From positions 3,658,001-3,722,000 of the forward strand of contig JAPNXP010000002.1 in NCBI GenBank assembly GCA_028753945.1: 64,000 nucleotides of DNA, in the 5' to 3' direction. Shown here piece by piece: positions 1 to 63,431 of this stretch (its first letter is position 1; every line of letters starts with the position of its first letter). Position numbers and translations under genes: made by a program. The notes below the pieces were generated by a model, which worked only from the letters and a program-made list of their open reading frames with translations, made no database searches and was not told the origin of the DNA. The DNA comes from Hexactinellida sp. DTS-2022. Taxonomy: Eukaryota; Porifera; Hexactinellida.

Positions 1-2
1 AG

Positions 3-640
3 CTACTTTTTCTGGATGCGCATAGAGCGGACGTATAGAATAAATTTCTCCAACTTAGGGATGAGTAACTCTGGTAGTTTCTGAGCCAATGTCGTTCATC
101 TCCTCAGTGCGATATGGTGTCGGATGAACAATTTTTGTAACCAGCCATTCGAAGCTTCAAAACGGTCACATTCTGCCTCTAACGCCACGTCCGAGTTGTT
201 ATTGAACAACTCCGTGGCCTTCATTTGTAACATTTTCCTGGTCACACGTAGAGATTTACCCCGCATCTCTGCAATCCACTCGACGAGCATAGTATATTCC
301 ATTGTCTCGCTGACAAGCTTCCGACCTACACCACTTAGACGTTTCTTCTTGCAGGTTTTGGCTGCTTCGTGGGAAATCATTTCGTCTAGCTTTCTCTTGT
401 TGTCCGTCCACTCCCGGATTCGTTTCGGATCAACGTTATATTTCCGAGCAGCATCAGACTTATTATTTAACACACGATACTTGACTGCCTCAAGTTTCAT
501 TTCTACTGAGTAGGACTTGTACTTGGGACGGCTTGCCTGAGTTGTGATTATGGAATTTATGGTACAGTGAGAGCTAGTGGAAGTGGAGGTGGCGGGAGGG
601 GTGGTAGTATGGATTTCGCATCCATGCTAAAATCAGGGAA
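3..640 (-). pseudogene. Tigger/pogo-like transposase, N-terminal part, broken
   Basis: The open stretch at 96-500 reads as the DNA-binding end of a pogo/Tigger (Tc1-mariner superfamily) transposase. It has a Brinker/psq-type helix-turn-helix (DAARKYNVDPKRIREW) followed by a CENP-B-type second helix-turn-helix ending GWLQKLFIRHHIALRR. The frame is open upstream of the ATG at 498-500 to about 615, through residues resembling the usual SYxVExKLEAV start of this domain, so that ATG is probably internal. Reading on past 96 in the same frame, an in-frame TGA (96-98) interrupts an otherwise continuous family-like sequence (LPELLIPKLEKFILYVR) until a TAG at 3-5. The DDE catalytic domain would lie left of the window. 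Pogo-type MITE ends elsewhere in the window (25045, 26692, 28500, 43273) fit this superfamily. Family assignment is firm; decay is seen directly. Confidence 0.8.
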
Positions 641-699
641 TAAGTAATAATACAACTCTGCAAAGCACGTGAGCAACTGAAATAAAATTAAGTTGTGGG

Positions 700-925
700 C
701 GGATAAAATAAATAATCCATACCTTGAAGAATCGCCCCCACCTGAGGGTTAAAAAAATAATAATCGCTAACTCCAATAATAGCCCCCACCTGAGGTAGCT
801 AAAAATTAATAATCGCCTACCTCCAATAATCGCCTACCTCCAATAATCGCCTACCTCCAATAATCGCCCCCCCCTTGAGGGGCTAAAAATTAATAATCGC
901 CTATGCTACTATTCGAATAAATACG
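700..925. repeat. Decayed MITE arm with AATAATCGCCTACCTCC tandem expansion
   Basis: Around 805-875 a 17-bp unit (AATAATCGCCTACCTCC) repeats about four times, flanked by variants with CCCCCACCTGAGG. The same motifs occur in reverse in the MITE at 31973-32234, so this is a partial, internally amplified copy of that family. No coding potential. Confidence 0.6.
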
Positions 926-926
926 G

Positions 927-1223
927 TATTTATTCATTTGAATAATAATATATTTGGATGAACTTACTACAAATACATATTACTAACTATCAACTATCCC
1001 TAATCATCATTTTTTGTTTTTTTGTAATAGTAGAACCGCTTTGTTACCACTAAATCAAAAAATATCTCAAATCTCCATAAAGAAAGATAATTAATAGTAT
1101 TAAAATCTTAGATAAACCGCATAAAACGAGCTGAGGGTCGGGTAAAAAAGTTATGGTTAGAAAAAATTGTTCCGCGTAAAACGAAAAAGCGTAAAAAATA
1201 CCGCGTAAAACGAGGTATTACTG
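927..1223 (-). mobile_element. Pogo-like MITE, partial copy (family with GTTTTACGCGG ends)
   Basis: The right end (about 1140-1223) reads, in reverse, CAGTAATACCTCGTTTTACG, then TA at 1224-1225. The interior matches 26,800-27,000 in inverse orientation (the AACAAAGCGGTTCTAC and GGATGAACTTACTA stretches). The left end is missing, replaced by the repeat remnant before it. Confidence 0.65.
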
Positions 1224-1225
1224 TA

Positions 1226-2450
1226 ATTTGAGCGTCTAAGATTCACTGAAATTTGAGCCTCTAAGATTCACAAAAATTTCTGGGGGCTAAACCCCCAGAC
1301 CTCCCCCTTACCGCGGCTCGCTTCGCTCGCTCTAGAACACCGCCTCACGATATTCCTGTATACGCCACTCTAGTATTATAGTTGTTTTTGTTTTCACAAG
1401 ATCCTTCCCCTAGGAAGGATACCAACCATACTGTCGTCTTTTGGAAATTCCACAAAAACCGCTGGGTTGTCTATGGTTATAGAGGAAGTATTTGTGATCA
1501 CTTTTTGACAAAATCCTCGAGTAGTTTTTTCAAAAATTGTGGAATATTAATATATTATTGTGCTCTTGTTGGATTTCAAATTAATAGGTTCTACATATTA
1601 TCTACAAATAACTACAGGGTAAGCTATTTTCCTGAAAATCACAACGGCAGTCTACGTTTAATATATTATTGTCCTCTTGTTGGATTTCAAATTAATAGAT
1701 TCTACATATTATATACAAAGAACTACAGGGTAACCTATTTTTCTGAAAAAAACACCGGCAGTCTACGTTTAACCATGGTCACCAGGAAAAATTATTGAAA
1801 TACATGGGAAAATAGGCTTGGTTACATCCTGACAATTATTGTGAACTATTAAAGTCCTACAAAGGGTAATTAAATAGTTACAACTCAAGTGTTGTGAAAA
1901 CTTTGAAAGCAGAATCCTGAAGCCTAAATAATTAGTAAGTATGAGTCTGTATGACTCATACTTACTCATTCATTTCAGAAAAATTCTGACAGATGGAAAA
2001 GCTGGCCCCCTGAATAATTGTTGCCCTTCCCCCCCTAGGTCGAAAGACCTGGCGCCGCACATGATATAAATACCTGTATTGAATTGAATAATCTAAAATT
2101 ACACCTGTGCCGACAGCATTTCCTTTGGATTAGCAATTATCCCTATATAAATCCCTGTATTGTATTAAAAAATCCAAAATTACACCTGTGTCGACAGCAT
2201 TTCCCCTTAATATGCTCTTTAAGAAACTGATATTTTTAGATTGCTAAGCCATATGATCTTAGCAATTTTTTGTATGGTTGCCATATATTTGGCTACATTC
2301 CATTTGCTTATTGAAATGCTATTTCCATAAATATTCTAATAATAGATAAATGCTATGTTTATTTTCAGTATTGCTTACCTCATTGCACCTAATTTTTCTG
2401 AATTAGTATAAATAAGTTGCTGAAAGTGCAATTTATTATATAAAACTCAA
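1226..2450. repeat. Gene-free stretch with short tandem and inverted repeats
   Basis: At 1231-1272 a TCTAAGATTCAC-type unit is doubled. At 1551-1772 a 111-bp unit (TATATTATTGTGCTCTTGTT start) is present twice in tandem. At about 2065-2215 an 81-bp unit containing ACACCTGTG(C/T)CGACAGCATTTCC is doubled. At 1938-1967 TAAGTATGAGT and ACTCATACTTA form a hairpin. The 1380-1490 segment resembles 35,320-35,425. No gene is supported; it could include the 5' flank of the Mutator-like element that follows. Confidence 0.5.
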
Positions 2451-3478
2451 GAATGTCAGATTCTTCTTATGATCCTCAATTGAACTCTTCTGACGAAGAA
2501 GGCTGTTCTCACACTCACAATATTTCGTTGACGTCTCTTCGTTCTCTCGGATCCCAGACGTCTATCGATTCAGCTGGAGAAGTTCCAACCCCAGTGACTC
2601 CCTCTATTCCCTGCTCTTAATCGCTCCAATCTATTAGTTTGGTCTCACCCAGACTTACAAAACGGAAAACAAAAGTATTCACATGTAAAAAGCGTTCTAA
2701 AGTTTGTGTATCTAAATCCAAGAAACAAATGCCTTGTTCTAAGCCTCTTCCAAAGTGATCAAGTTCCATGAACCACAAAGTGAACTTGAATCATTCAGTG
2801 CAGATGAATATTTAATTCCCATTACAAACATAATTATTGACGTAAAGCCGTTCGAAACTGCCTTAGACTCACTTACGCTGTTTAGTGTTTGTCTCAAAGG
2901 AAATGTTAAAATCTTTGAGACGTACAAACATGGTTTTGCTTCACACCTACGTTTGCATTGTAATAAGTGTCCATCTCACAGAACTTTATGGAGCGTTAGT
3001 AGAAGGTATAATTCCAAGTTTGAAGATTGGACAACAGGAGATACCCAAACGTAACGACCTGATGTATACGTCCAGGGGCGGATCCAGAAATTACTGGTGG
3101 GGGGTGATCTAGAGCGAGCGTTGCGAGCGATCATATCGGGGGGTTCAGGGTGGTTTAACCACCTGGAGTTTCTTTGACTCACATAGGCTCAAATATCGAT
3201 ATCTCGAGTTCGATGTAACCTTCAATAAGCTCTAGGTGTCGTCCAAGTTCCTGCAGGGTGATAACAAAATATATGATGTATATTGTTAATGCTTGATAAC
3301 AAAATCTAAGGTATCCTAACTAAGATATATATTGTAAATGCTAAATAATAAAATCTAAGGTAACAAAACTAAGTGTATTCTCTAAATGCTAAATTACAAA
3401 ATCTATTTTGTGATGACCAGACTTCGCAAAGTCACCTATTCATCTAATGATATATCCTTATGTATATACATTAGCGCT

Positions 3479-21412: not shown

Positions 21413-24400
21413 GATAAAATCCCAATCATTGTCTATTCCTCTTTTATTGCATTTTTGGAATGTATTGATACCAATGTGTACTCTCAAGATATTCATAATA
21501 AAGATTTCTATTAATTTTCCAGTATGACACACTTAGATCACCTCAATCTAGGAATAAAAGATTCAAATTTTTTTATCTCAAAACCTCTATCTCAAAACTA
21601 ACAAATTCAGAATTGCGGAGGATGTGATTTTGTCAATTTTGCTCGTGGAATCAAAAACTCAACGGTTTCGGATAGATCTCGTGAAGAAAAACTTTTGAGT
21701 CGTGCGATTTATTCTATTATGAATTGTTCATGTATTTTTTCGATTTTCGATCAGGAAAATCTTCATTTGAAGGTCGAGATCACATAAAAGTATTTGAAAT
21801 CCATAATAATGTAGATATTCACAATTACTTTGCTAGAAATTTATATTACATCCTGCTAAACACATTTTATTAATAATATTCTTGGTCTTGTTTATCATTG
21901 CTGCACAGTCGGAAATTAGGTGGAAATAGGATAATATTATCATTCACTTGAAACTTGAATTCGTGCTTACCACTGAATTCAGATATCAAATAACTTAGTA
22001 ATGCATAATTTCATTCCGATCTAAGAAATACTTTGGTTGTTATGACTAATCAAAGTATTAGATATTTAACAATTGGAATTTCTATTTTGCGGTTATAGAA
22101 AGTTACTAATACTTCATTGCAGATTTTCAGAACTCTGTTCTTGGGAATGACTTCTCTTTTGAATATTCTGATATACATGGATTAATTTGATTTATTAGAT
22201 GTCATAAAATGAACAATTCAGCAAAAAAAATCTAAAAAAGTTAAAATATGAAACAATATGGCCCATAATCTCATTCTAGGGTACGTTTTCTAGTCATTTT
22301 TTTTCTCAGACACTCGAGGTGCTAGAATTAAATAATACGTCTCAAAATACTCGCAATACGTGACTTCCTATCCGTCAATAATACATTTCGTGACCCTAAC
22401 ACGCACCGTCTTCAAAATAATCCATATATGGGCATTTAATGTGCCCATTTTTGATGACGCAGCAAATTTCCACTCTCCGAAACTATAGACTCCAGAGCTT
22501 AGCTCTAACCATCTATTCACATCAATATCCCACTGCAAACTAATTGGAAGTACAAATGATACCAATATCCAAATGGTGACAATCCTATAAATTCCCATTT
22601 CCTTATATGGTGGTGTCAATTCAGTGATGTGACAATAAACCCCTAAATTAATTAATATACGAGAGCTTAGCACTAACTTCCTAGTAATGTCTATGATCCA
22701 TTTTATGTTTGAATTTGAAGTTTTATAAGGTATTAAACAATTTTCCACAAGGTTGCAACCCTTCTTTACCATTTTTCTTGGAATATTTGGATTTACCAGA
22801 TGCCGGACTAAATGCCAGACTTTTTTGAGAAATTCACCAGAGATTAAGGTCTCAAAAATTTTGTATACTATTTGGGATACATAATATTGAGTTCAATTAC
22901 CTCGAAACTCTAATAATCAGCATTAATCATTAAGATAATGAGCCAAAAGTAATATATTTGAAGAAATATCGACTATTTCCAACGTCGGTGGATTCCAAAT
23001 TATATTTTGGCCTTATAATTAGAATATCAGAATCTGAGCTAAATAAGTATTTACTACATGACTATTAGTAGCTATGTAGTGAATAAGAACATTCTAAAAA
23101 AAGTATAGCAAGTTATAGAATGCATATAAAATGTGTTGTACAGGATATACGCTCTTTGATCAATATTGAAAGTATCTATACTTAGACAAAAGAATTCGTT
23201 ATAGAAGGATATAATTAACTTTTAAGTTATGCAAACTTAGGGTTGTTACAATTCTAACATTGTGCTAATCTACGCGCGATTCGGAAATCCTTTCATTACT
23301 CAAAAATACCTGTCCTTGGACACCGTTAAGGTTAAATTACCCCACGGGAATGAAATCTCTTGTATTAATCTGTAATTGTTAGAAATAGATCAAGGTACGA
23401 TACAAAGCAATAAACAAAAAAGGAAATGTCTCAATATATTATACTTTTTATTTTTTGTCGGTTTCAATATTTGGCTAATACAAATCTCCCATAGGGCGAT
23501 TTCAAAAAGTGGTGGTCGATATTATAGTGTAATTTGGCAATGCGGCCATCAATGTTTGTTATCAGAATCAATATTGAAAGATTATAAGCGTACGGAGTTG
23601 GTAGTCGGTTTACATTTTTGAATTATGACTCTGAAATTATTTTTCAAACATTTTATCAAATATCTCATAAAAAACATGACCTTTTTAATGATTTCTTTAG
23701 TTCAAAAGGTCGCAACTTTTTTTATTTAGGTCAAATCAAAATTCTAAACCAGTCACCTACAGCATATAACGATGATCTATGTGATATATCGCACATAATA
23801 TGTCTTTAGCTAATAATGATCTTGAGATCGACACACTTATCAGGTGGAGTCTGAAGAAATCCCCCTATGGGACTTTTGTATTACCATAAAACTGCACGCC
23901 CCATAAAATCGAATTTATTCAAAATAATTCGATTTCGTTTTCAGTTTCGATATAGCTATAATGTCTTCTATTATATATGTGAAAATTAAACATCTTACTT
24001 CAAAACGAAATTTATGTGTTTTTTTACATGAATCTGCCGTAATTTAACCTTAACTCGAATCCAGTGAGTTAGGGGTTACAATGAATTAAAATATGACTAA
24101 TATCAAAAAATTCGGTGTCAATTTGATGAATTAAAGTTTAGCAGGGAACTGAACTGTCTGAAAATTAGTGGAATCATACTTTTACATACTGAGATCTCAA
24201 CAATATTGTCAAAACTAGGTTCTACAAGCTCTAAAACCAAGGTGATATAATATTCTTATTAAATAGTTTCTAAATGCGCGAAAAGGCGCGACGTAGATTA
24301 CTTAATAACTTTGAACCATATATATTAGGATTTTTGAAAGAATTATACCTTGTTCAAGAAATATAATCAATAATCATGGGTGAATAATAAAAAATTTGTT

Positions 24401-24774
24401 AACAAACCGAAAGTATAATTAATGATATAATTAACATGAATTGTCTAGAACTAGGTTTAGGAGACTATGTACATCATTTTTGATAATGCCATTCAGTTTG
24501 AAGCTACCAATAGCCTATATGTCAATAATACTTCATTACAGTCTATCTAGCATAGTTTTCCTATTTCCACTTACACCCCTGAAAATTTCCACTGTGTGCG
24601 GAAAGATCTATTCCGAAAATATGCTAAAAATTTAAAAAAATATTTTCCTCTCTTAATTCATTTGCCAATATTTAGGTATTTTTGGCTTCCTGAGGATGAA
24701 GTATTTCCGCTGTAAAATGTAAGTAAATTGGGTAAATATTAATGGTAGAAGTGCTCTAGAGTAAACTTGAACCT
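21413..24774 (+). mobile_element. AGGTTCAGG-family MITE split by a 2.7-kb insertion
   Basis: The left portion 21,413-21,903 and right portion 24,597-24,774 join into one collinear copy like 13213-13913. The extreme left end is missing next to the AATAAGCGCC MITE. The right end GAACCT is followed by TA. Confidence 0.8.
21904..24596. mobile_element. Transib/RAG-like non-autonomous element, CACAGTC/CACAGTG ends
   Basis: Begins CACAGTCGGAAATTAGG and ends TTTCCACTGTG (reverse CACAGTGGAAA), with near-identical 5-bp flanks TGCTG (21899-21903) and TGCGG (24597-24601). Removing it restores the host MITE sequence. CACAGTG-like termini plus GC-rich 5-bp duplications are the signature of Transib/RAG-type elements. 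No transposase domain was recognised in its 2.7 kb; a 134-codon minus-strand frame near 22,368-22,772 lies in a separate repeat and is not called. Confidence 0.72.
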
Positions 24775-32234: not shown

Positions 32235-32854
32235 TATTCGAAATCGATATGAAGATCCGCGAGTCATTCACGATGAACTTGATTTATGTGTAAGTGATCA
32301 GTTGGAGCGATTCCAAACAGGTGCTAACCTACTGAATGCAGATCAACTGATTATATTTAAGACTATCATGACAGCCGTGGATGATTCTCAGGTTTATCCT
32401 AAGGTGTTCTTCATCGACGGACCAGGCGGTACAGGAAAGACATTCCTTTTACAATACTCTGTTAGCTAGGGTCCGATCGAGGGGAGAGATTGCCCTATCT
32501 ATGGCTTCTTCGGGAATAGCGGCGCTCCTCTTGAATGGTGGTAGAACTGTCCATTCCAGGATGAAAATTCCTCTTTCAACCAATGAGTACTCTGTCTGTA
32601 ACATTACTAAACAGTGCGCTTGCTATCTGATTCAGCGCTCAACTATCTTGGTTTGGGACGATGCTCCAATGGCAAATAAGCATGTAGCCGAGTGTATGGA
32701 TAGTACTTTGAGAGATCTGTGCTCTTGCGAACTACCATTTGGTGGCAAGGTTATCGTGTTTGGAGGTGATTTTCGTCAAATCCTACCTCCTCTTAAACGG
32801 GCAAGCAGGGGTGAAGTCTGAATAGATCACCTCTCTGGCGTCTTGTTAAGGTAA

Positions 32855-36920: not shown

Positions 36921-37451
36921 CTACGGAGATATTTTTTCAGCCAGTTTAGCGAGAACAAACGTTATGTTGCTCTCATTAAATACCTTTGGAGCTATAAAAC
37001 CGAGTTTAAATATATAATGTCGCTCCACTAAAACGTTCATAACTCTGGAAATAATAATCGTATAGATGAAAACACAAGTCCCATCGATTGAAAACATCCT
37101 TTCGCACACAGTGGGCATATTTAGGGATGTAAGTGGAAATATGAAAACCATGCTAGATAGACTTTAATGAAGTATTATTGACATATAGGTTATCGGTAGC
37201 TGCAAACTGAATGGCATATCAAAAATGATGTATGTATTCTCCTAAACGTAGTTCTAGACGATAAATGATAATTCAGTCAAAAATTAGAATTAAGGTTGGT
37301 TAACAAAATTATATTGTTCACCCATGGTTATTGATTATATCTCTTGGAAGTGGTTCAATTTTTTCAAAAAATCCTAATACATATGGTTTAAAGACATTAA
37401 GTGATCCACGTTGCGCCTTTTCGCGCATTTATAAACTATTTTATTTGAATA

Positions 37452-37727
37452 TTATATCACCTTGTAATTAGAGCCAGTTGGAGCAGTATTATTGACATCT
37501 GAGTAAATGTCAAAAAAGTATGTTTCCACTAATTTTCCGACAGTGCTGCTCCCTGCTGAACTTAAATTCATTAAATTGACATCGAATTGTTTGAAATTGG
37601 TCGGATCCCAATTGATCGTATTCCATAAAGTACTGGACTCGAAGCTTCTCTCGAAAATTTTTCGTTTTGAGAAATTCAAGAGCTTGTCTATTTTACATGA
37701 TGCAATATATTTAATGAAGTCGTACAC
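37452..37727 (-). other. 91-codon open frame of unknown origin in the second CACAGTG element
   Basis: The frame reads MYDFIKYIASCKIDKLLNFS ... SNYKVI, with a stop at 37452, and is cut upstream by the MITE at 37725. It has no match I recognise to RAG1, Transib or other transposase motifs, and the first codons come from the MITE end. It could be a captured host exon, internal TE coding or chance; a coding test is needed. Confidence 0.25.
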
Positions 37728-38288
37728 TAACCAGCCAAAAGTATTTGAACAATTGGAATTTTATTGCAGACACAATAGTCGTCTGGTAACTCATTAACGG
37801 CTGTTTAAACTACTCTGAAATGATTATAAATATCTTGCTATAGTTATAAATTACAAAATATTTTGAATTTACGTCATTATAGTCAATATCCATCAAGTGG
37901 CATAAGTGTATCTGCCACGTGCCACTTGTGGCACAAGTGGCAGAAATTGGAATGTGGCTGTATTTCAGTGGAAAATGAACATAATGATATAAAATTATGC
38001 ACCCAGAGTAATTCAACCATGTGGAATTCAAATCTGCAATCAGAACTTCTATATTTTCATTACATCTTGATGATCAGAAATTATATATTTAATTAGCTAA
38101 TTATATAGTTAATGAGTTTAACACCTCCATATAAATGTAAATTCAAAATATTTGCTATTTTATTATACTTTAAATATCGTATTATGTATATAGCAGTGTT
38201 GATGAATCCGTCAATGCTATTATGCTGCTAGAAGCTTGAATAAATTAATACAAATTATTGCTGTTCAAATACTTTTGGCCGGTCAGTG
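37725..38288. mobile_element. Tc1/mariner-like MITE (CAGCCAAAAGTATTTGAACA ends)
   Basis: CACTAACCAGCCAAAAGTAT left; the right end in reverse is CACTGACCGGCCAAAAGTAT. TA at 37723-37724 and 38289-38290. GGCCAAAAGTATTTG is characteristic of Tc1-type ends. Confidence 0.85.
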
Positions 38289-38909
38289 TATATCTATTTT
38301 GTAAAATAAAGTGTCTGTGCGCCTCTGTGCGCCTTTAAATGACAGTTCATTTTGAAGAGAAATATATAACCTGCGTCCTAAACTTTAAAAACAGCAGCCC
38401 ACGACGGCCCACTATTAATTCCATCACTTCGTAAGTATTTAACTTAACAAAAAATGGTTTTCCGATTCAATGAAGTTGATATAGCTGCAGGGCTAATATA
38501 ATATTTTTTGGGAAGGTTTCCAGTATCAGAATAAACTATTTAAAGGTTGGTTTGAAAATATTATATAAGCATTAGTCAATTTAACTATCCTCTTAGTCAT
38601 TTCTGATTTCTTTGAAATTCAATACTTATATAAACCACAGAAATGAAATTTTATTGTTCATTTTGACGTAAACATTAATCACCACAACAATCAATATAAT
38701 TGTTGGATAGGTATGTAAATATGCATTTCTATGTTATACTATATGCTGAATTCAATGGGTAATACCTAATCAACGATCTAAGGTGATACGATGATAGCCT
38801 ATTTCCACCTAAATGCCCACTGTGCCGCAGCGTCTGTAAAGATATTGTAAAAATTTTAACATTTCTAACTTTGGTCGATTCAAATGCGGCACCAGCGTTA
38901 ATGTCGATA

Positions 38910-48779: not shown

Positions 48780-48784
48780 TAACT

Positions 48785-51700
48785 CACAGTGGCCGAAAAT
48801 AGCAATTTACAACGAATAGGCATTTATAGACCAGATATACACAGGAAATGTATTATCATCTAATAGGTTATCCACCCCAAGGAATCGAATGGTATTAAGC
48901 GATTATTTGTATGGCTTCATTCAAGTGAGATATGACGTCACAAAATTGAACACAGTTCATTTTTTATTTATAATGTGGTTCAGGTAAAGAGTTAGACCCT
49001 ACAAATGCATTATGAAGTGATAGGTTATCGATAAAACACTTTAATAAATATAAATATGATTTATTGTTAACATTGTTTTCGTTATTCAAAGCAAAATAAA
49101 ATGGGGAAAAAATTCAAAATTTATTGCCTTATTAATTTCTCTGACCTGCAATCCAAACAACCTTGAAGATTGTCTGTAACACATAATAATAATGAGGTAA
49201 CGAGTTTATCTTGAGCTGACAAATTTTCAAAATCAATTTCTAGATTTGATTGGTTAGTGGAATACTTTCTAAACTGGGTTAACACTGGGTCGCTCTGATT
49301 TGTCAAACCTGACCATTATGTCATGAACATTTAACTCAAAGCTGATCTTTCGAGACAACTGTTCCCTAAATTTCCTCACGTATTTGTTCAAAGCTTCAAG
49401 ACTTTCTTCAGAGAAATTCTTAACTCCGAATCCGTTGTTGTAAACATCGATTACTTCACCCGAATGCGCCAACAATTTGTGTAAAGATGGTGTAATGTTT
49501 GCCCAAGTAAATTTCGTTACTATGAATTCGTAAGTTGTCTTGGAAATTTCAGATAATCTATTTGTATCGATTTTGTGGCTACTGTTATAAACCCTCAAAA
49601 TGACGGATAAATTTTGGTGTATGATCTCAACCCATTCAGTTTCTACTTCATTAATTGTGGATGTTGCCCATTTCAGGAAATCTTTCTTGTTTAAGAAGCA
49701 GTCTCTGGCTATGTTACCGGTTGTTGAAGTGCCACCATCACATGAAGGGATATCGATGTGGAAACCAGTATCTTCTAAGATCAATGATCTCATGCGTTTG
49801 TTTCATGGATGCATGGATAGGAAGTGAAGTTGGTGCCCAGTGCTTTTTTCCTGCATCTAGGTGGTAAATCAGTAACATGAACCAGCGAAAAACACATAAG
49901 TAGCTGTGCAATGGAGAAGCAGGAATTATATCAATTTTCGATGACGGTGGGTGAGTTAATCCATATCTTGTGTCTGAGTCAAGTTTAAGGTATTCATCAA
50001 TATTTACGTCGTTAAAGATAGAAATTGCATCATGAATATGCCGATTGATTGGAAACCCGGACCTAATCAATTCGATTTCCTTCATTTCCTTGTGAGTTAC
50101 GGTGCACATCTGGCAACTAGCACCCCCAGCTCCACTTAGAATTTTTACATTTTACCATTAAACATGGTTCGAAAGACTTTGACATTACATACACCATCCG
50201 ATAAATTAAGACCATTTTGTTCCATATCAAAGGTAGGAGGATTGATAAAGAAGTTCAATATGAAATCATCATTTTTTTGGTTTTCTTTAATGGCAAGTAA
50301 TAACACTGGACGTGTCGCAAAAGGAGAATTAGGGTGTTTGTTTTTCCATACAATGTTCATATTTTTGTCTTTAATGGTTAGAGGCTTGAAAGCGTATAAT
50401 AAGAAGCTTTTAGTAGAAAAATTTGAGTCCCGAGATAACTGATTGTAAATCTTGTGACTGCCTGATCCATCGAGGCCATCGGCTATCTCAAAGGATATTG
50501 GATATTCTGAACATTTAATATTGATCGTTTCTAATATCCTTTCAATGGTGTACTGAACAATAGTAGAATAAGCATAACCTACACCTATAGGACTTGCTTC
50601 TCTATTGATAGTTTGAATTTGTGTGGATAGTGCAATTTTAGAACGAAATATTGAGATTTTGTCATAGGATGGGAATAAAACTCCTTCTGGTTTGCAAAGT
50701 TGTCTTTTCCAATTTCTAAAATGTCCAATAGAAAAGCGGGCTTTTCAAGCGGAATTTGTCTTTCAGCTAGTGCAAATGTACCTGTGTCGATTATGTTTGT
50801 ACAAACTTTAGAAACTTTTCTATTATGGCTAGCATTTGAAATGAATTTAAGAGCATAACTTGCAACTTCTTGATCACTTAGTTCTTCACGATCTGCAACA
50901 AATGTAATATGTTCTAATAATACAGTAAATCTACTTCGTTGAGATTCTATGGACAATTCTGAAAATTTCTTCCTGGTATTGGTATGTTCTTCTACAAATA
51001 TATCTTTTCTGCACTTAAGACACGTGAATTCTAGTTCATTACTCTAGAGTGGACATAGATTTCCCAATTCATGCACTGTAGGATTATCTTCTGAAGGATG
51101 TGTGTAAAATAACTCACCTTCCCAGACAGAGAGCGTATTGTTTCTAAGGCAAGTTTGACGATTCAATTTTAATCGATTAAACTTGTTCTTCAGGACATTG
51201 AAATTATTACCGTCTAACTCAAATAATTCTAAATACATACGAGCAGCAACAGTGGGTTTCTCATGTTTTAAAAGATAGGCTGCAGCTTCTTGGTTATTCA
51301 TTTAAATGCTATAATATACAAAAGTAGAGTACATATTTATAATTTAGTAATGTTACGATAAAACTTTTTTAAAATATTCCATTAAATAACTTTTTGAATT
51401 TCATTGAAATTGCTAAAAAGGTGTCCAGACTTAACCATAATTTATTTTCGAAAACTCGCGGGACTAAGGGAAGATGCGAAAAACATAGATAAATCTCTAC
51501 CCATCCACATCTATAAGGTCACTAAGGTGGTTGTGATTGGTCCTAAAAGATGCTAATGTATATACCCACAGATCGGACGACTAAATATTTATTTTGAAAC
51601 CGATGAAATTAAGTTTAAAAAGTTAGCTAAATATATAAATTTATCAACATTGTAAACAAATAATATTAAGTACACTTCAAGTAGATTCAAATATAGCTAT

Positions 51701-51954
51701 AATTATTGTTCTATAGAAACTACTTTGTAACTTACGAAATTCTATATTTAGAACCAATTAGAGGTGAAATCATGATGTTTAGGAAACCACAAAATAGACT
51801 GTCATTAAACTATCACAATTCATTAAGATGTTAATTGATTTACTTGGTAATGTATAATTAGAGGTTTTATAGTGTGTAGAATATATATATAACAAGCTTG
51901 AGCCAATTGAATGGCATCAAATTTTGCCCTAATCGACGCTACTTTCCCACTGTG
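48785..51954 (-). mobile_element. RAG1-like/Transib transposon, CACAGTG ends, TSD TAACT
   Basis: Starts CACAGTGGCCGAAAATAGC and ends, in reverse, CACAGTGGGAAAGTAGCG, with an exact 5-bp duplication TAACT (48780-48784, 51955-51959). The heptamer CACAGTG is the V(D)J signal heptamer and the 5-bp duplication is the hallmark of Transib/RAG-type transposition. Inverted similarity is short (about 8-18 bp); no nonamer-like ACAAAAACC at 12 or 23 bp was seen. Length 3,170 bp with a single transposase gene and no RAG2-like gene. Confidence 0.88.
49121..51301 (-). pseudogene. RAG1-like/Transib transposase with frameshifts and one nonsense codon
   Basis: From the ATG at 51,299-51,301 the frame runs to GNLCPL, where a TAG (51,041-51,043) interrupts continuous sequence, then EFTCLKCRKDIFVEE with a Cys pair. 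The core follows: YAYSTIVQYTIERI, the first acidic site IADGLDGSGSHKIYNQ (DG-x-DG-like, as at the RAG1 first catalytic Asp), LLYAFKPLTI, a second Cys pair GGASCQMC, KIDIIPASPLHSYLCVFRW, CDGGTSTTGNIARDCF, ITPSLHKLLAHSGEVI, and EESLEALNKYVRKFREQLSR. That last block aligns with the region around the RAG1 third catalytic residue (EGNESGNKLFRRFRK). Frameshifts lie near 50,740, 50,150, 49,795 and 49,300. About 725 codons in all, shorter than RAG1, with no RING/N-terminal region seen. The second acidic residue was not assigned. The terminal CACAGTG and TAACT duplication support the family. Confidence 0.85.
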
Positions 51955-52096
51955 TAACTTTTACAAATCTCACCCGATTAGTATAAATCTTGTATGAAAA
52001 TATACAACACCTAGTAGAACATCTTTGCGAAAATAATAAGTTAATAAGCACTTAGTTCACGAAAGTTATTAGTTAAAATGTGTCCTATGATTTTTA

Positions 52097-52216
52097 ACAC
52101 TATGTGGGTGATCTGATTTGTTTGGTTAACAAGAATGCAATTTACTTTCCCTGATGACACTTTGTGGGTGATCTGATTAGTTTGGTTAACAAGAATGCAA
52201 TTTACTTATCCTGAAG
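52097..52216 (+). repeat. Perfect-phase 60-bp tandem duplication
   Basis: Two 60-bp units (ACACTxTGTGGGTGATCTGA, then TTGGTTAACAAGAATGCAAT) differ at a handful of positions. Non-coding. Confidence 0.85.
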
Positions 52217-56708: not shown

Positions 56709-58464
56709 CAGGGCTTTACATAAATCATTTTGATGATTTTATTTTCAAATCAAATCAATGATTTATGATTGATCTTTGGGTAACATTCAATGATTTGATG
56801 ATTGATTTTTTCTATTTCATTTTTAGAATGATTTGATTTTGATTGATTTGTGAAAAGTTAATGATTTGATTTTTATTTAAATCAAATCATTTTTCTGCTC
56901 TGTATAATATTATTAACCAAGATTTATGTTATATTTGCTTCCACATCAGGAGGTTATAGTAGTATGAACACATTAAATACAATTGCGGGTCTATGTGCAT
57001 TTTATCGTTTTACTTCACCCCCGTTTGAAACTACAATCACTCAGCTAAATCGAAACCCAAGTTTTACCAGGAACAACCCAATACCAATAGTCTTAGATTG
57101 CTCCGGTTTAATGGGTGAAATATACTAACGTATACGTATACTATTACTATCGACTCCGCTTATTAGTCTCCTCGGAATGAGATATTTTGACCTATTAATA
57201 GGTACATCTGAAAAGGATTACTAATTTATAGTAACATGTATTTTTATTTCCCAGGTCCAAATAACCAAAGTGATTTGTTATTATAGCTATTATCTTGATT
57301 AAGATTCTTCGATCACCTATAAAAAATCTGTTATTGTGTGTACATTAGTATTCGGCTAAAAGAATATCTTCGGGACTCGGGAGTAACAAAAAAACTAATT
57401 ATATCATCGTAATTGGAAATGATTTGATTTTGATTTTTGATGATTTTGTGGTGAATCAAAATGATTTGATGATTGATTTTTTCAATCTCACATTTTGAAT
57501 GATTTGATTTTGATTGATTTTTACAACACTAATTTTTGAATGATTTTGATTTAAGGTTCAGGTCTACTCTACAAAATACCAAAATTTCGATAAAATCCCA
57601 ACTATTGTAAATCTCGTTTTTATTGTATTTTCGGATTGTGTGGACACCCATGTGGACTCTCACGAAATTTCAAAGAAAAATTCCAATTATTTCTCCAGTT
57701 TGACTCACTTCGAGTTTTGAAAAAAATATCGGGGTTCTGGTGTTGGTTGCCGGTTGCAGTATACCATAGAAACTTGATAATTTCGGGACATAGCCAAATA
57801 TATGTTTTATCTTATATTAGGATAGAACAGCATATATCGCATCTTAATTTCAAATCTTATGGAAAAATATTAAATACTTTCAATGATACATACTTTTTAG
57901 TGTCCTCCACCTAAGCCACTGCCATAGGGGACACTTTTTTCAAACCCCGCTATCTCCAAACACAATTATTGGCATTGCGGAAGTCATATTATGACTCATA
58001 TACCACCTAGAAACAAAATCTCAACGGTTTTGGACAGCTCTCAAATAGTTCTATCATATGAGTGCAGCGATTTCATTTGTAACTTCTCTTTTTCTTTTTA
58101 TTTAATTTATTGATGATGAAAAAAGTGATGTCCTCATTTATTGATGAAGAATTTGACTAATAAGTGATTAAAAGAATTCTTGCACTCATAAGATAGTTTA
58201 GAAGTTTCTCCATGCAATGCAACAACAATCTACTCTTAATCATTAACAGGAAAAAACTTATCCGTTCCGCAAAATACGATTTTATAGAAGAAAAAAAATT
58301 TCACTGAGTTACCTAGATCGAATATTATTGCATTTTTGCCATTTAGCAGATGAAGTAAATCCGCTGTAAAAAAATTAATTAATTCGGGTGAATATATTTG
58401 GTAGAAGTGCTCTAGAGTATACCTGAACCTTAAAATCAAAATCAATGATTTATGTAAAGCCCTG
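56709..58464. mobile_element. hAT-like element rich in TGATTTGAT words, TSD GTACCCAC
   Basis: CAGGGCTTTACATAAATCAT left; the right end in reverse is CAGGGCTTTACATAAATCAT. Exact 8-bp TSDs GTACCCAC at 56701-56708 and 58465-58472. Subterminal arms (56,730-56,890 and 57,415-57,550) are arrays of AATGATTTGATTTTGATTGA-type words. 57554-58430 is a later TA-flanked MITE; the rest (56,900-57,410) shows no coding. Confidence 0.9.
57554..58430 (+). mobile_element. TA-flanked MITE, AGGTTCAGG family, long subfamily
   Basis: 877 bp with TA at 57552-57553 and 58431-58432; near-identical to 33721-34594. Third layer here: MITE in hAT-like element in Gypsy. Confidence 0.93.
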
Positions 58465-59060
58465 GTACCCACCTGTACTTATTCGCCAGGCGTAACTTAA
58501 CGTCCGGTCCTCTCCTCTCCACGACTAGAAATGGGCCGTCATACCTCGGTGACAGCGAGTCTTTCGTTATATTACTTTTCAGCATAACCATGTCTCCCTT
58601 ATCGACTTCCGTCTCACGCTTTCCCGCGTTGTACCGCTGCCTAACTTTAGATAGGTTTCTCTCGATACTATCTCGGGCGATGTTCTCTAGTTCTTCTTTT
58701 TTCTTTTTCAGGGTGTGAAGGTACTCCTCATGGGAGTTCCTCTCGCCTTCGCTGAGATTTTCGCACCTGGCATCAAGTGGAGAGTGGGGCTCGCGTCCAA
58801 ATGTGAGGATTTGGAAAGACAGGTGGCTGGTGCATTTTTCATGCCGTTTAGGTGAAAACTCACTTCGGTTAAGAATCCTGGCCAACTTGCTTTCGGTAAG
58901 TGGCGGTCTGCTTGTAAACACCGAATTACCTGTTTCACTAGTCCTATGTGGCGCTCAGCCATGCCGTCGCACTGAGGATGATAGGGTGTTGTGCGTCTCT
59001 TGTTTACCCCTGCTAACCGGCAAAACTCCCGGAACACCTGACCATCCACGTTTTGTTCCT
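58465..59060 (-). pseudogene. Gypsy integrase, C-terminal two thirds
   Basis: Reads TDK, then VDGQVFREFCR and the TPYHPQCDGMAERHI block with the third catalytic Glu. After a frameshift near 58,880 come a long charged helix (KKKKEELENIARDSIER) and GDMVMLKSNI ... RYDGPFLV, the C-terminal DNA-binding fold. The zinc-binding N-terminus and the first catalytic Asp are absent because of the deletion at about 59,075. Confidence 0.82.
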
Positions 59061-59339
59061 TTATCCGTCAGTATGATCGAGTTCTGTCAAAATTACTATG
59101 CTTGGGGCGCCTTTAAGGTACACTGACCATTTGCGAGTCGCTGCGATCAATGCCCACGCCTCCAACTGTCCCGCCGAGTAATTCTTTTGACTAGAACTGA
59201 GCGCAGACGAAAAGAATTGGATAGGCCGTAGTTTACGGGTGTTCTCGTCCAGTTGTGATAGGATGGCTGCCACCCCTGTTGAGCTTGCGTCGGCCTCCAC
59301 GTAGAACTCCTTATTCCATTTAGGATGAGTGAGGGACAC
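59061..59339 (-). pseudogene. Gypsy RNase H, N-terminal half
   Basis: EFYVEADASSTGVAAILSQ carries the first catalytic Asp, then FFSSALSSSQKNYSAGQLEA with the Glu. It stops at VILTE where the sequence jumps into the integrase. The second half, including the other active-site residues, is missing. Confidence 0.82.
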
Positions 59340-59350
59340 GGGTTCGCGTA

Positions 59351-60606
59351 CTAGTTTTGTGCGTAGTTCCTCGAACGCCTTCTGGCACGCTGCGTCCCAA
59401 TTCCAAACTTTTCCCTTTCGAAGCAGGGAATATATAGAGGTTGACCAATGAGAGACATGTTTTCAATATAGCACCGGTAATAATTTGCTGTACCGATAAA
59501 CCGCTGTAGCTTCGTAAGCGTTCTGGGCACAGGGAACGACTTGAGACTCTCTAGGTATTCTGGTACTGGGCTTCGCCCTTCCTCGGCTATCTTGTGTCCT
59601 TGAAACTCGATATATCTGTGGCCCAGCTTGCACTTGTCCCTGCGTAGTAAGAGGCCAGACTCTTCCAACCGGTTAAACACAGCCTTTATGTGTTGTACGT
59701 GAGCTTCGAAGGTCGGGGAATATATCAGAATGTCATCCACAGAGCTTTTGTAATTAGGGATATTCCCTAGGGTACGGTCCATCACCCTCTGGAAGGTGGC
59801 CTGGGCGTTGCATAGCCCGAAAGGCATTACGTTCATCTCATGCAGTCCCCTAGGTGTATGAAATTACGTTTTCTCGATGTCGCTTGGGTGGACAGGAATC
59901 GACCAATAGGCGGAGGCGACATCCAACTTTGAGAAATAACGATACCCAGCGATACGATCGAAAATCGATTGCGGATTTGGTAGACTGTACTCGTCGCGCT
60001 TTGTAACGGCGTTCAACCGACGGTAGTCTACTGCAAATCGTAAAGCCCCATCCCTTTTCTGGACCAAGACTATGTCGGAGGACCAAGGTGAATTGCTGGG
60101 TCTACAAATGGGAGGATCGGCAGCTAGCATCTCCTCTAATTGCCTTGAAATCTCTGGCTCCCAATGTAGGGGCACTCTCCTTGGCCGTGATCTCTGGGGT
60201 GCTGCGTTGTCCGTCTGTATTCGATGTGGCTCGTCGATAAGGCATCTTCCTGGACGCTTTGGATGGAGGGCGAATACGCGCTTGAGGTCCCTCGTTAGTT
60301 GCTCAAGCATCTCTTTCTCCTCGGGGGTGAGCTTGGTACACATCATCGTGTCAATACCGGCGCTAATCGTAGCGACCTCGGGTTCGTCTTGTTTATCCAC
60401 CTGGCTCGTGCCAGTGGTGTAGCTCCACTTAAAGTATTGTGTACGATTATCCAAGACCGCCCGAAACGGACTAGCCAATTAACCCAGTCGAAGGTAACTT
60501 GCCCCAGTTGTTCCATGAACCTCCTCCCAAGTAGTAGTGTCGGTTCGTCAATATCTAGTATTTCGATCCGTTCCATCACGAGGCTCCTGTCGCCAAATTG
60601 GAACAT
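59351..60606 (-). pseudogene. Gypsy reverse transcriptase with protease-RT linker
   Basis: The linker (60,343-60,606) has LLLGRRFMEQLGQVTFDW, typical after the aspartic protease. RT motifs follow: VQKRDGALRFAVDYRRLNAV, SKLDVASAYWSIPV (first Asp), and after a frameshift near 59,850 MPFGLCNAQATFQRVMD. The catalytic box reads SVDD in place of the usual YxDD, then GHKIAEEGRSPVPEYLES and LQRFIGTANYYR. Frameshifts near 60,450, 59,850 and 59,400 and the changed catalytic box mean it is dead. Confidence 0.85.
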
Positions 60607-60986: not shown

Positions 60987-63431
60987 CAGGCTTGGGGTCA
61001 AATACATTCAAATGTATTTAAATACAATACAAATACTCTTCAAAATGTATTTAAATACAATACAATTACTTTGGAAATAATTTCAAAAGTATTTAAATAC
61101 TTTCAAATACTTTCCGAAAGTATTTAAATACTTTACAAATACTAATTCAAACAGTCATGTTCTAAATGCAATAAAATTTGTTAATAAGGATTAGCTACTA
61201 TAGTACGTATATAGAATAAATGGAAGTGAATATATATGATTATGATTCTACACTACTAGTAACTAATACAAATTCAATATTATTCCCTCATACTAAAGCT
61301 GTGCCAACTGCCTAGTGTTGTTGACAACTAATCCATTAGGTTACACTTAATAAACATAAGGGTTTCAAATGTTTTATCGGATAAACGACATCTTTCAGGA
61401 CGAAAGATTTTACCAGCAGTAGAGAAAATCCGTTCTACTGGTGCGGATGAGCCTGGTACACTCAAATATCTTGAAATAAGTTTTAAAAGTGTTGGGAATC
61501 TAGTTTTGTTTACCTTCCAAAATAGTAGAGGATCTCCATCCTGTTCTAGACATGGCGTAGATAAATATTCCTCGATTTCATTATTTATAGTGTGTTCCGT
61601 TGATTGAGGATTCAAATTGAGTTCTTCATCTATAAGTTTACTGAAAAATCCTGTTGGTCTCTTAGCTGGTGGTTCGTTTGTTATTTCCAGAGTCTTTTCT
61701 GATGGAGCTTCATACATCACATTATGAAGTTTCGAACATAAATCTGTTTTTAAGGTATTATATTCGTTTCTAGTCTTGCACCAGTATAGTTTAAAGCGAG
61801 GGTCCAGCATTGTAGCTGTAAGATAAACTTCACGATTTTCATAAGGTGTTAGTCTTTTCGAAGTAGACGATCTTAAATCTGCAAAGAAAGTCGAATTATA
61901 CTGTTTACTCAATTCATCGAGACTAGCTTTTAAAACTCGAATACATGGTATTACAAGGCTGCCAGTAACATTCTTTTCGCCCTGAATCAACAAGGTCGCC
62001 TTTTCGAATGGGGTAAGAATTTCGATCAGATCTTGGAGTATCTTACGATCATATGTAGTTAAGTATTGTTTTGTTTTTAAAGAATTCAATTTCTCCAAAG
62101 GAATGTTCATTAACGAACGTATCATTGTAAGTTGGGAATTCCATCTAGTCGCATTTGCTGCTTGAAGACGCTTCTCAGTTTCCAAAAATTCAGAACTGTG
62201 GATCGAGGTGCGTACATGGGATACAATTGAAGACGCTTTACTTAACACTTTACGAATGCCATGTGCTTCTTTAAATGCATCTTTTATGACCAGCTGGAGA
62301 GTATGTGCAAAACATGGAATGTGATCAAAGTATAAATAATCATAAAGATTTTCTTTATCTTCACCATCATTTACTATGATTGAATCATCGGAATCCGATT
62401 CATCTTCACTTGAATCATTATTGTATATGGAGGTTTGAGAAGTAGGATCACTCACTTCTTCAAAGCCGGGGAGTGAGAATGCTTTAATCATATTCGATGC
62501 ATTGTCAGTTATGATATATGAGATTTTGTTTGTGATATCGAAGGTAGTTTTAATTCTTTCGAATTGCTCATAGATATACTCTGCAGTATGTGAACCATAG
62601 AATCGTGAACAAGCAAGCATGAAGGAACAAAGAGTGAAGTCAACAATAAAATGACACGTAACTCCATAATAACTCCTCATCTGTCTGTTCGTCCATAGAT
62701 CGATAGTAATACAAATCGCATCTGTTTTCTGAAGACGTACCATCAAATCACTCTTTATTTGAGCAGATTTATTAGGTAATAATTGAGAACTAAGGTGTTT
62801 CCTGCTGGGAATTTGATATCTGGGTTCAGCTTTCAACATAAGCTTTTGGAAACGAGAGCTATCGACAGTACTTAGTGGCAACAGATCGCCGGCGATAAAA
62901 TTAACTGTAGCATTAGTCAGTTCAACTTGGCGGGGATCCGTGCTAGTATACTTCTTAGGAGGTGAAAATAATGGCGTTAATGTGGTCTGAGAATCGATGT
63001 TAGTATTTGATTGTAACTTTTCATATTCAGAAGGGTGTTTCCTTTTGAGGTGAAGTAACAAATTTGACGTGGCTTTAGTAGAAGCAGAAATCATTGATTT
63101 GCAGATATTGCACATCGCTTTAAAATTACCTTCAGATTGAGCCTCGGGTATATCAAAATAATTGAATATCATAGATCTGTTAGAAGTCGCCATTTATAAA
63201 TTGAGAAGGTAAGAATTCCAAGTAGTAAACTTTGGTTACTATGTATTAAGGTTAAATTATAAAGTATTAGAATGTATTTGAACAAAATACAAATACATTT
63301 CAAAAGTATTTAATTACAATACAAATACTTTCACAAAAATATAAAAAGTATTTAAATACATCTCAAATACATGAGAAATGTATTTAAAATACATCAAATA
63401 CAAAATACATTTGTATTTGACCCCAACCCTG
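60987..63431 (-). mobile_element. Autonomous BED-finger hAT transposon, no matching TSD
   Basis: CAGGCTTGGGGTCAAATACA left; the right end in reverse is CAGGGTTGGGGTCAAATACA. Both subterminal zones (60,997-61,145 and 63,265-63,420) are dense arrays of GTATTTAAATAC-type palindromes, likely transposase binding sites. The flanking octamers (GTTCACGC, CCGGTAGG) do not match, so sequence was lost at one side or the insert arose by recombination between copies. Confidence 0.88.
61328..63193 (-). CDS. hAT transposase, ZBED type, apparently intact
   Basis: An uninterrupted 621-codon frame from ATG at 63,191-63,193 to TAA at 61,328-61,330. It binds its own element ends and catalyses cut-and-paste transposition in the nucleus. 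Domains in order: BED zinc finger at residues ~5-55 (FKAMCNICKSM then LLLHLKRKHPSEYEKL, two Cys and two His), and the RNase H-like core starting near residue 160 (DAICITIDLWTNRQMRSYYG, with the first Asp). Then come YIITDNASNMIKAF near 230 (second Asp), an acidic insert (NDSSEDESDSDDS) and HIPCFAHTLQLVIKDAF near 290, the hAT CxxH-like helical site. The C-terminal dimerisation region runs from about 545 to 615 (YLSVPGSSAPVERIFSTAGK, LMFIKCN). Length is normal for ZBED/AC-type transposases. No frameshift or stop, unlike every other transposase here. Confidence 0.93.
   Translation of the reverse strand: MATSNRSMIFNYFDIPEAQSEGNFKAMCNICKSMISASTKATSNLLLHLKRKHPSEYEKLQSNTNIDSQTTLTPLFSPPKKYTSTDPRQVELTNATVNFIAGDLLPLSTVDSSRFQKLMLKAEPRYQIPSRKHLSSQLLPNKSAQIKSDLMVRLQKTDAICITIDLWTNRQMRSYYGVTCHFIVDFTLCSFMLACSRFYGSHTAEYIYEQFERIKTTFDITNKISYIITDNASNMIKAFSLPGFEEVSDPTSQTSIYNNDSSEDESDSDDSIIVNDGEDKENLYDYLYFDHIPCFAHTLQLVIKDAFKEAHGIRKVLSKASSIVSHVRTSIHSSEFLETEKRLQAANATRWNSQLTMIRSLMNIPLEKLNSLKTKQYLTTYDRKILQDLIEILTPFEKATLLIQGEKNVTGSLVIPCIRVLKASLDELSKQYNSTFFADLRSSTSKRLTPYENREVYLTATMLDPRFKLYWCKTRNEYNTLKTDLCSKLHNVMYEAPSEKTLEITNEPPAKRPTGFFSKLIDEELNLNPQSTEHTINNEIEEYLSTPCLEQDGDPLLFWKVNKTRFPTLLKLISRYLSVPGSSAPVERIFSTAGKIFRPERCRLSDKTFETLMFIKCNLMD

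Follow-up and report, generated by a model that had tools for sequence, protein, structure and literature searches.

Several described systems bear on the ends of the element studied here. Subgroup I Transibs were defined in 2022 by asymmetric ends, a RAG1-like α11–α12 region, and a CTT1 tail (Tao et al., PMC9435367), while the ends of Hztransib are symmetric according to PMC8289069. AanRAGL, the RAG-like (RAGL) transposon of the alga Aureococcus, has two end elements, with spacers of 4 and 13 bp after a 13-bp first element (PMC9435367). The 12/23 rule of the vertebrate recombination signal sequence (RSS) needs RAG2, as stated in a review (PMC8355894), which also notes that 12/23 asymmetry beyond V(D)J is known in few Transibs only (it cites examples from a fly and a mosquito) and that RAGL termini in invertebrates do not conform to 12/23. 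Here, we analyze a 3170-bp element at positions 48785–51954 of a 64-kb window (the whole stretch of DNA under study, 64,000 nucleotides) on contig C11 of a glass-sponge assembly of 112.4 Mb in 18 contigs. An earlier note, made from the letters of this stretch, had taken the element for a RAG1-related Transib. In our assessment, it is probably a dead cut-and-paste Transib of the RAG1L-like Subgroup I type, belonging to a family that would bind each end at two places and pair one short with one long end in a synapsis without RAG2.

The Element and Its Termini

The element starts with the heptamer CACAGTG at 48785–48791 (plus strand, gene-downstream end) and finishes with the reverse complement at 51948–51954 (minus strand, gene-upstream end), the transposase being encoded on the minus strand. 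Both termini read CACAGTGG, and direct reading of the flanks gives TAACT at 48780–48784 and again at 51955–51959, confirming the heptamers and the exact 5-bp duplication described in the earlier note. In the window, CACAGTG occurs four times in the forward and four times in the reverse orientation, and the ends of the element constitute the single inward-facing pair (150–6000 bp apart) that is bounded by an exact 5-bp duplication; no such pair appeared in 60 simulated 64-kb sequences (first-order Markov). A 60-bp tandem repeat (52097–52214, two copies, 93%) lies immediately to the right of the element.

Long repeat arms at the ends were considered and rejected, as the ungapped match between the two ends stops at 8 bp. 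The similarity past the first 8 bp in the window copy alone is equalled by 56 of 1000 shuffles, and the second end block discussed below is therefore visible only when copies are compared. One other copy in the genome is 97% identical across element positions 1–3044.

A transposase search with P0001 returns at least 84 matches genome-wide, some loci being split into several pieces, and at least 13 of these matches lie in open frames of at least 700 aa, the matched part being free of stops. The ends were examined at 31 loci (30 transposase loci and that of the window), where any CACNNTG was accepted per end, provided that no fewer than 4 of 5 duplication bases agreed and that the terminal 12 bases matched in 9 or more. 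A pair of ends was obtained at 16 loci, in 15 cases with an exact duplication, and CACAGTGG is found at 31 of the 32 ends, CACATTGG at the other. Four further copies comprise two with exact pairs (C15 and C6), one with both CACAGTGG ends and unmatched flanks, and one with a single such end. Genome-wide, 131 of the 161 sites of CAC-N15-GGAAATAGG carry exactly CACAGTG. The full RSS heptamer, together with the following G, is a family trait. It is conceivable that an ordinary Transib would match the RSS consensus by chance and only in the window copy, where the ungapped match of the two ends covers just the first 8 bp. The 31 of 32 ends and the 131 exact sites make this explanation extremely improbable, and we count it as already refuted. 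The same termini recur in other copies, each with its own duplication; the shifted termini that had been set beforehand as a reason to abandon the assignment did not occur.

Along 3.08 kb, the copies L051 and L052 share 99.1% of their sequence, each being flanked by a different exact duplication; their frames measure 713 and 711 aa. Such near-identity combined with distinct duplications indicates recent movement of the family. A 920-bp internal-deletion derivative that closely resembles the window element, L019, terminates in CACAGTGG on either side and is flanked by a duplication of its own, CTACA. L019 (C18:4918403–4919322) and L020 (C13:3193095–3194311), both of the window's subfamily, have common breakpoints at element positions 185 and 2435.

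The Second End Block and Its Two Spacings

The comparison of copies reveals a conserved second block of the GGAAATAGG/TCGATTAGG type at both ends. In the window copy, it is ACGAATAGG at the left end (48812–48820, plus strand), following a 20-bp spacer (48792–48811), and TCGATTAGG at the right end (51928–51936, minus strand), following an 11-bp spacer (51937–51947). Over the family, 11 bp separate the block from the heptamer at the gene-upstream end and 20–21 bp at the other. The earlier statement that no nonamer is visible thus holds for the RSS nonamer and misses this block, which lies 11 and 20 bp from the heptamers and is seen on comparing copies. The RSS nonamer ACAAAAACC itself was rejected, its best match being 5/9 at either end, with 887 of 1000 left-end shuffles reaching at least 6. 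Strict 12/23 spacing was rejected as well: the conserved 12/23-type spacers that the earlier note had suggested looking for in genomic copies are present as two fixed distances, and their lengths to the 9-mer are 11 and 20–21 bp.

The block is offset between the two ends by +9 in 10 of the 16 pairs and by +10 in 3. For the offset statistics, the ends were extracted by script, with L068 taken as found, and three near-duplicates were dropped from 18 pairs to leave 15. At L068, the duplication-bounded pair is at locus positions 150 and 3927, with the long-spacer end upstream of the transposase. The mean identity at offset +9 is 5.06/9, followed by 3.65 at the next offset, and the best offset cell reaches 5.33/9 compared to a maximum of 4.07 in 500 shuffles. 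The best shared start cells of the block are 18/27, tied with 17/26. Among 44 non-redundant CACAGTGG ends, a strict block motif is located at position 19 in 8, at 28–29 in 16, and at 10 and 27 once each, while shuffles of these ends give 0.365 matches per run. A profile built from the same family has its best position at 18–19 in 17 of 46 ends, at 27–29 in 22, and elsewhere in 7. Held-out non-redundant ends number only 3, which is too few for a test, and the strict motif is in none of them.

Across the genome, the two distances form two sharp classes. The pattern CACAGTG-N{k}-SRADTAGG with k = 3–33 gives 743 matches, compared to 36 for the control, in which the pattern is read backwards. These matches are concentrated at k = 11–13 (260, control 1) and k = 20–23 (439, control 4), with 11 at k = 14–19 (control 1), such that the short and long classes together amount to 699 of the 743. 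By subtraction, 33 matches fall outside these ranges versus 30 in the control, and places that fit two spacings may count twice. An off-register control, CAC followed by 16 Ns and GGAAATAGG, yields 6 matches versus 20 when read backwards.

The pairing of the two classes was assessed for their 158 sites on contigs C1–C3, by considering adjacent inward-facing sites within 6 kb. Out of 29 such pairs, 28 are short+long, one is long+long, and none is short+short, where random labels would give 47% mixed pairs. The other neighbors within 6 kb are outward-facing in 4 cases and on the same strand in 5. The spans of 15 of the 29 pairs are between 0.97 and 1.33 kb, and these pairs are therefore taken to be non-autonomous derivatives.

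The bases between heptamer and block vary among subfamilies while the block and its distance are kept, and the block type co-varies between the ends of one element, being TCGAATAGG at both ends of L040 and GGAAGTAGG at both ends of L046. Because the distance is fixed, the intervening bases diverge, and the two ends co-vary, the block is most simply regarded as a putative second binding site, comparable to the nonamer in the case of RAG1. An alternative is that the block is a subterminal relic, the heptamer and approximately the first 15 bp being sufficient, and that the 9-bp difference goes back to an old indel that all subfamilies inherited. This would agree with a paper on protostome RAGL (PMC7204232), according to which the RAGL enzymes of invertebrates depend on the tail and the outer 15–17 bp, these being said to suffice in the CCGHC-tailed ones, where asymmetry would be of little importance; also, positions 9–18 match between the two termini within an element at offset 0, and 2 of the 16 pairs deviate. 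A relic would, however, hardly persist at a constant distance behind a diverging interval, co-vary between ends, and leave k = 14–19 nearly empty across the genome, and we judge this alternative to be unlikely.

The Transposase, Its Relatives, and Other Elements in the Window

The transposase gene (49121–51301, minus strand) is decayed. Its read-through of 723 aa is interrupted by an in-frame stop near 51045 and by frame breaks near 50705, 50147, 49790, and 49300. The ADGLDGSG and EESLEALNKYVRKFRE regions pointed out in the earlier note are both encoded on the minus strand within 51301–49121, and the coding stretch that holds them is broken; the element can thus be called near-complete with respect to its ends and not with respect to its coding sequence. 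The catalytic residues, which we take to be numbered D600, D708, and E962 (matched to the alignments by counting), are D, N, and E in the window copy instead of the full D-D-E. The Asn, found by alignment in TMFNGK (50157–50159, minus strand), replaces an Asp that is present in nine aligned relatives and invariant in alignment A3. As read from the sequence, it tells against activity of the window copy and not against Transib ancestry. The zinc ligands C394, C397, H605, and H610, i.e., the CxxC and HxxxxH of the RAG1/Transib core, are invariant in 10 aligned rows.

The decay was set against two other copies, L011 and the closest one, L010, which shows 72 differences over 3029 aligned bases. Neither of them shares the stop, the Asn, or the frame breaks near 50705, 49790, and 49300, and the remaining break, near 50147, recurs in L010. 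Most of the decay therefore postdates the split of the window copy and L010. Judging from these lesions, the window copy is dead, and its parent, possibly defective by then, may have been mobilized by the enzyme of a relative. No open reading frame of at least 60 aa (ATG, GTG, or TTG start) is found between the gene and either end on either strand, and hence no RAG2-like one, as the earlier note had maintained.

Among relatives of solved structure, HzTransib comes closest to the read-through (E = 1.6e-24), with amphioxus RAG1L next (E = 0.025), in agreement with the earlier assignment to RAG1-related Transibs. The named transposase relatives are from sponges, and the proposal of a non-vertebrate host is likewise borne out. 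In a midpoint-rooted tree with long branches, which includes no named Subgroup I Transib row, the sponge clade (100/100) joins the Transibs, and RAG1/RAG1L are separate (100/100). Of the marks of the Transib superfamily, a homologous transposase, the zinc ligands, heptamer-like CAC ends, 5-bp duplications, and a single gene without RAG2L are found; the D-D-E triad is incomplete in the window copy. Those of a RAGL transposon are missing, as there is no RAG1L–RAG2L gene pair and the transposase falls, on long branches, outside the RAG1/RAG1L clade. By these characters, the element is classified as a Transib and not as a RAGL transposon. A genome-wide search with the Pfam RAG2 profile gave 0 matches, which shows little, as the control genomes also gave 0, and a search of viral and prokaryote contigs for relatives gave no confirmed match.

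The zinc-domain stretch, measured in one alignment between the zinc cysteine and the conserved histidine that follows it, comprises 65 residues in the window read-through and 65–67 in all of the 16 clade rows but P0051, which has 61 and is gapped. It is 67–69 residues long in Ephydatia and three unnamed rows, the "Em"-named proteins being read as Ephydatia muelleri via one NCBI-named row, 64 in mouse RAG1, and 60 in RAG1L; in all 17 arthropod-type rows, HzTransib included, it is 28–30. With regard to the features of Subgroup I, the asymmetric terminal repeats are thus present, as is, by length, the RAG1-like α11–α12 region. A CCGHC-type tail (x3–x5 before the last Cys) is found in 15 of the 38 sponge-clade proteins that extend to the C-terminus, 2 of the 15 having the exact RAG1L spacing (x4), and in none of 16 arthropod-type rows, of which 13 extend to the C-terminus. 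The RAG1-like insert and the tail are what one would expect if a RAGL transposon had lost its RAG2L, as opposed to a Transib that never had one. Such a loss is nevertheless improbable, considering that the sponge clade groups with the Transibs apart from RAG1/RAG1L (subject to the long branches and midpoint root), that the sequence match to HzTransib is far better than that to RAG1L, and that the same domain features are in print for RAG2-less Subgroup I Transibs (PMC9435367).

The window contains a second, non-autonomous Transib of 1718 bp at 37107–38824, with the long-spacer end on the left (block GGAAATATG) and the short-spacer end on the right (GGAAATAGG); its flanks, TCGCA and CCGCA, are alike in 4 of 5 bases. 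A decayed element of 2693 bp at 21904–24596 is a probable third Transib, with the short-spacer end on the left (heptamer CACAGTC), the long-spacer end on the right, and flanks TGCTG and TGCGG, also alike in 4 of 5 bases. A tblastn comparison of eight sponge proteins with the window shows transposase homology at 49148–51301 only. Other mobile-element remains are an open 621-aa hAT transposase frame with a BED finger and a hAT dimerization domain (61328–63193, minus strand), broken pol pieces of a Ty3-like retroelement with reverse transcriptase and a weak SH3_Tf2-1 (58442–60478, minus strand), a PIF1-like helicase fragment that is perhaps Helitron-derived (32372–32821, plus strand), and a Tc5-type transposase DNA-binding domain (96–626, minus strand). 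An Rfam scan of the window gave 0 matches at the gathering threshold.

Proposed Mechanism and Relation to Known Systems

We propose that the intact relatives make a RAG1-core-like DDE transposase, which would bind each end at two places. By analogy with HzTransib and RAG, the heptamer CACAGTG(G) would be the site of nicking and hairpin formation; we infer DDE cutting at this site from the fold and the ends, such cutting being established for HzTransib. The second block is predicted to be read by the N-terminal part of the transposase. The active synapse would consist of one short (11 bp) and one long (20–21 bp) end, similar to the 12- and 23-RSS of RAG but without RAG2, and it is the genome footprint that suggests that short must pair with long. 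Reinsertion would then yield the 5-bp duplications.

A number of observations weigh against this proposal. No duplication-bounded pair was obtained at 15 of the 31 loci, 2 of the 16 pairs (L043 and L058) are without a clear 9–10-bp offset, and one more (L068) has the +9 offset with its long end upstream of the transposase. The reversed order in L068 perhaps reflects one Transib inside another, and it is kept as an exception. The strict block motif is missing from 19 of the 44 non-redundant CACAGTGG ends and is defined on the same family in which it is counted. In the pairing set, an inward-facing neighbor within 6 kb is lacking for 100 of the 158 sites, the long+long pair (C1:8766059–8768871) is possibly a rule-breaker or possibly two unrelated ends, and the pair and site counts are not independent events, since copies share descent. 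Finally, the branches of the tree are long, and the CCGHC-type tail, a mark of Subgroup I, is missing in 23 of the 38 relatives that extend to the C-terminus as well as in the subfamily to which the window copy belongs.

The family resembles the Subgroup I Transibs (ctenophore, Hydra, and others; PMC9435367) in being RAG2-less, in its asymmetric ends, in the RAG1-like zinc-domain insert, and, in part of the family only, in a CTT1-type tail (Cx2Cx3GHx4C of RAG1L). Set against the text description of Subgroup I, it differs in its sponge hosts, the consensus RSS heptamer, the 11/20–21 spacers, and, for the subfamily of the window copy, the absence of a CCGHC tail. HzTransib (PDB 6pqn and relatives) and the 16 arthropod-type rows, which are Subgroup II-like, are without the long zinc-domain insert, unlike the sponge family, and the CCGHC-type tail of part of that family is in 0 of these 16 rows. 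In AanRAGL, the second element starts at 18 and 27, a 9-bp difference in nearly the sponge register (18/27 and 17/26 tied best), but RAG2L is present and the end elements are CACACCCAAACCT and CCTCAA[C/T]A[C/T]G. With the vertebrate 12/23 RSS, the family shares the heptamer CACAGTG, a second block at either of two distances, short and long, that differ by about one helical turn, and the use of one each per pair. The spacers are, however, 11 and 20–21 rather than 12 and 23 (12 and 21–22 to the last 8 bases of the 9-mer). Amphioxus ProtoRAG, as described in PMC8289069, likewise has a heptamer-like end, a distal 9-bp element, unequal spacers, and a preference for asymmetric pairs, but with CACTATG, TR5 GCCATCTTG, spacers of 27/31, and its own RAG2L. 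The start positions computed from the published spacers are 20 and 31 for the RSS nonamers and 35 and 39 for TR5.

Asymmetric Transib ends are thus already in print, and what is new here is the sponge family, unusually RSS-like and with intact and recently moved relatives. Neither the family nor its spacing is described in the open-access literature as searched by title and abstract, and the word Transib is absent from two glass-sponge genome papers. The expectation of the earlier note that the element could inform the transition from Transib to RAG is a fair one, tempered by the publication in 2022 of asymmetric ends in RAG2-less Subgroup I (PMC9435367).

With regard to the origin of the 12/23 rule, this sponge genome offers hundreds of ends with the vertebrate heptamer at two fixed spacer lengths, in recognized pairs that are almost always short+long, along with intact transposases and near-identical copies. 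We tentatively raise the possibility, which we hold to be somewhat doubtful, that the short/long signal rule predates RAG2 and that an ancestral RAG1-like transposase paired unequal ends with the second block at about 18 and 27 bp. If this is true, vertebrate 12/23 would be a stretched version of the ~18/27 geometry seen in sponge Transibs and AanRAGL, and the glass-sponge Transibs would represent living systems in which the vertebrate heptamer and a functioning short+long rule operate without RAG2. The value of the family lies in its being abundant, recently active, and RAG2-free and in having ends that combine an exact copy of the vertebrate heptamer with a short/long layout, which lets RAG2-free short+long synapsis and the reading of the block be tested directly.
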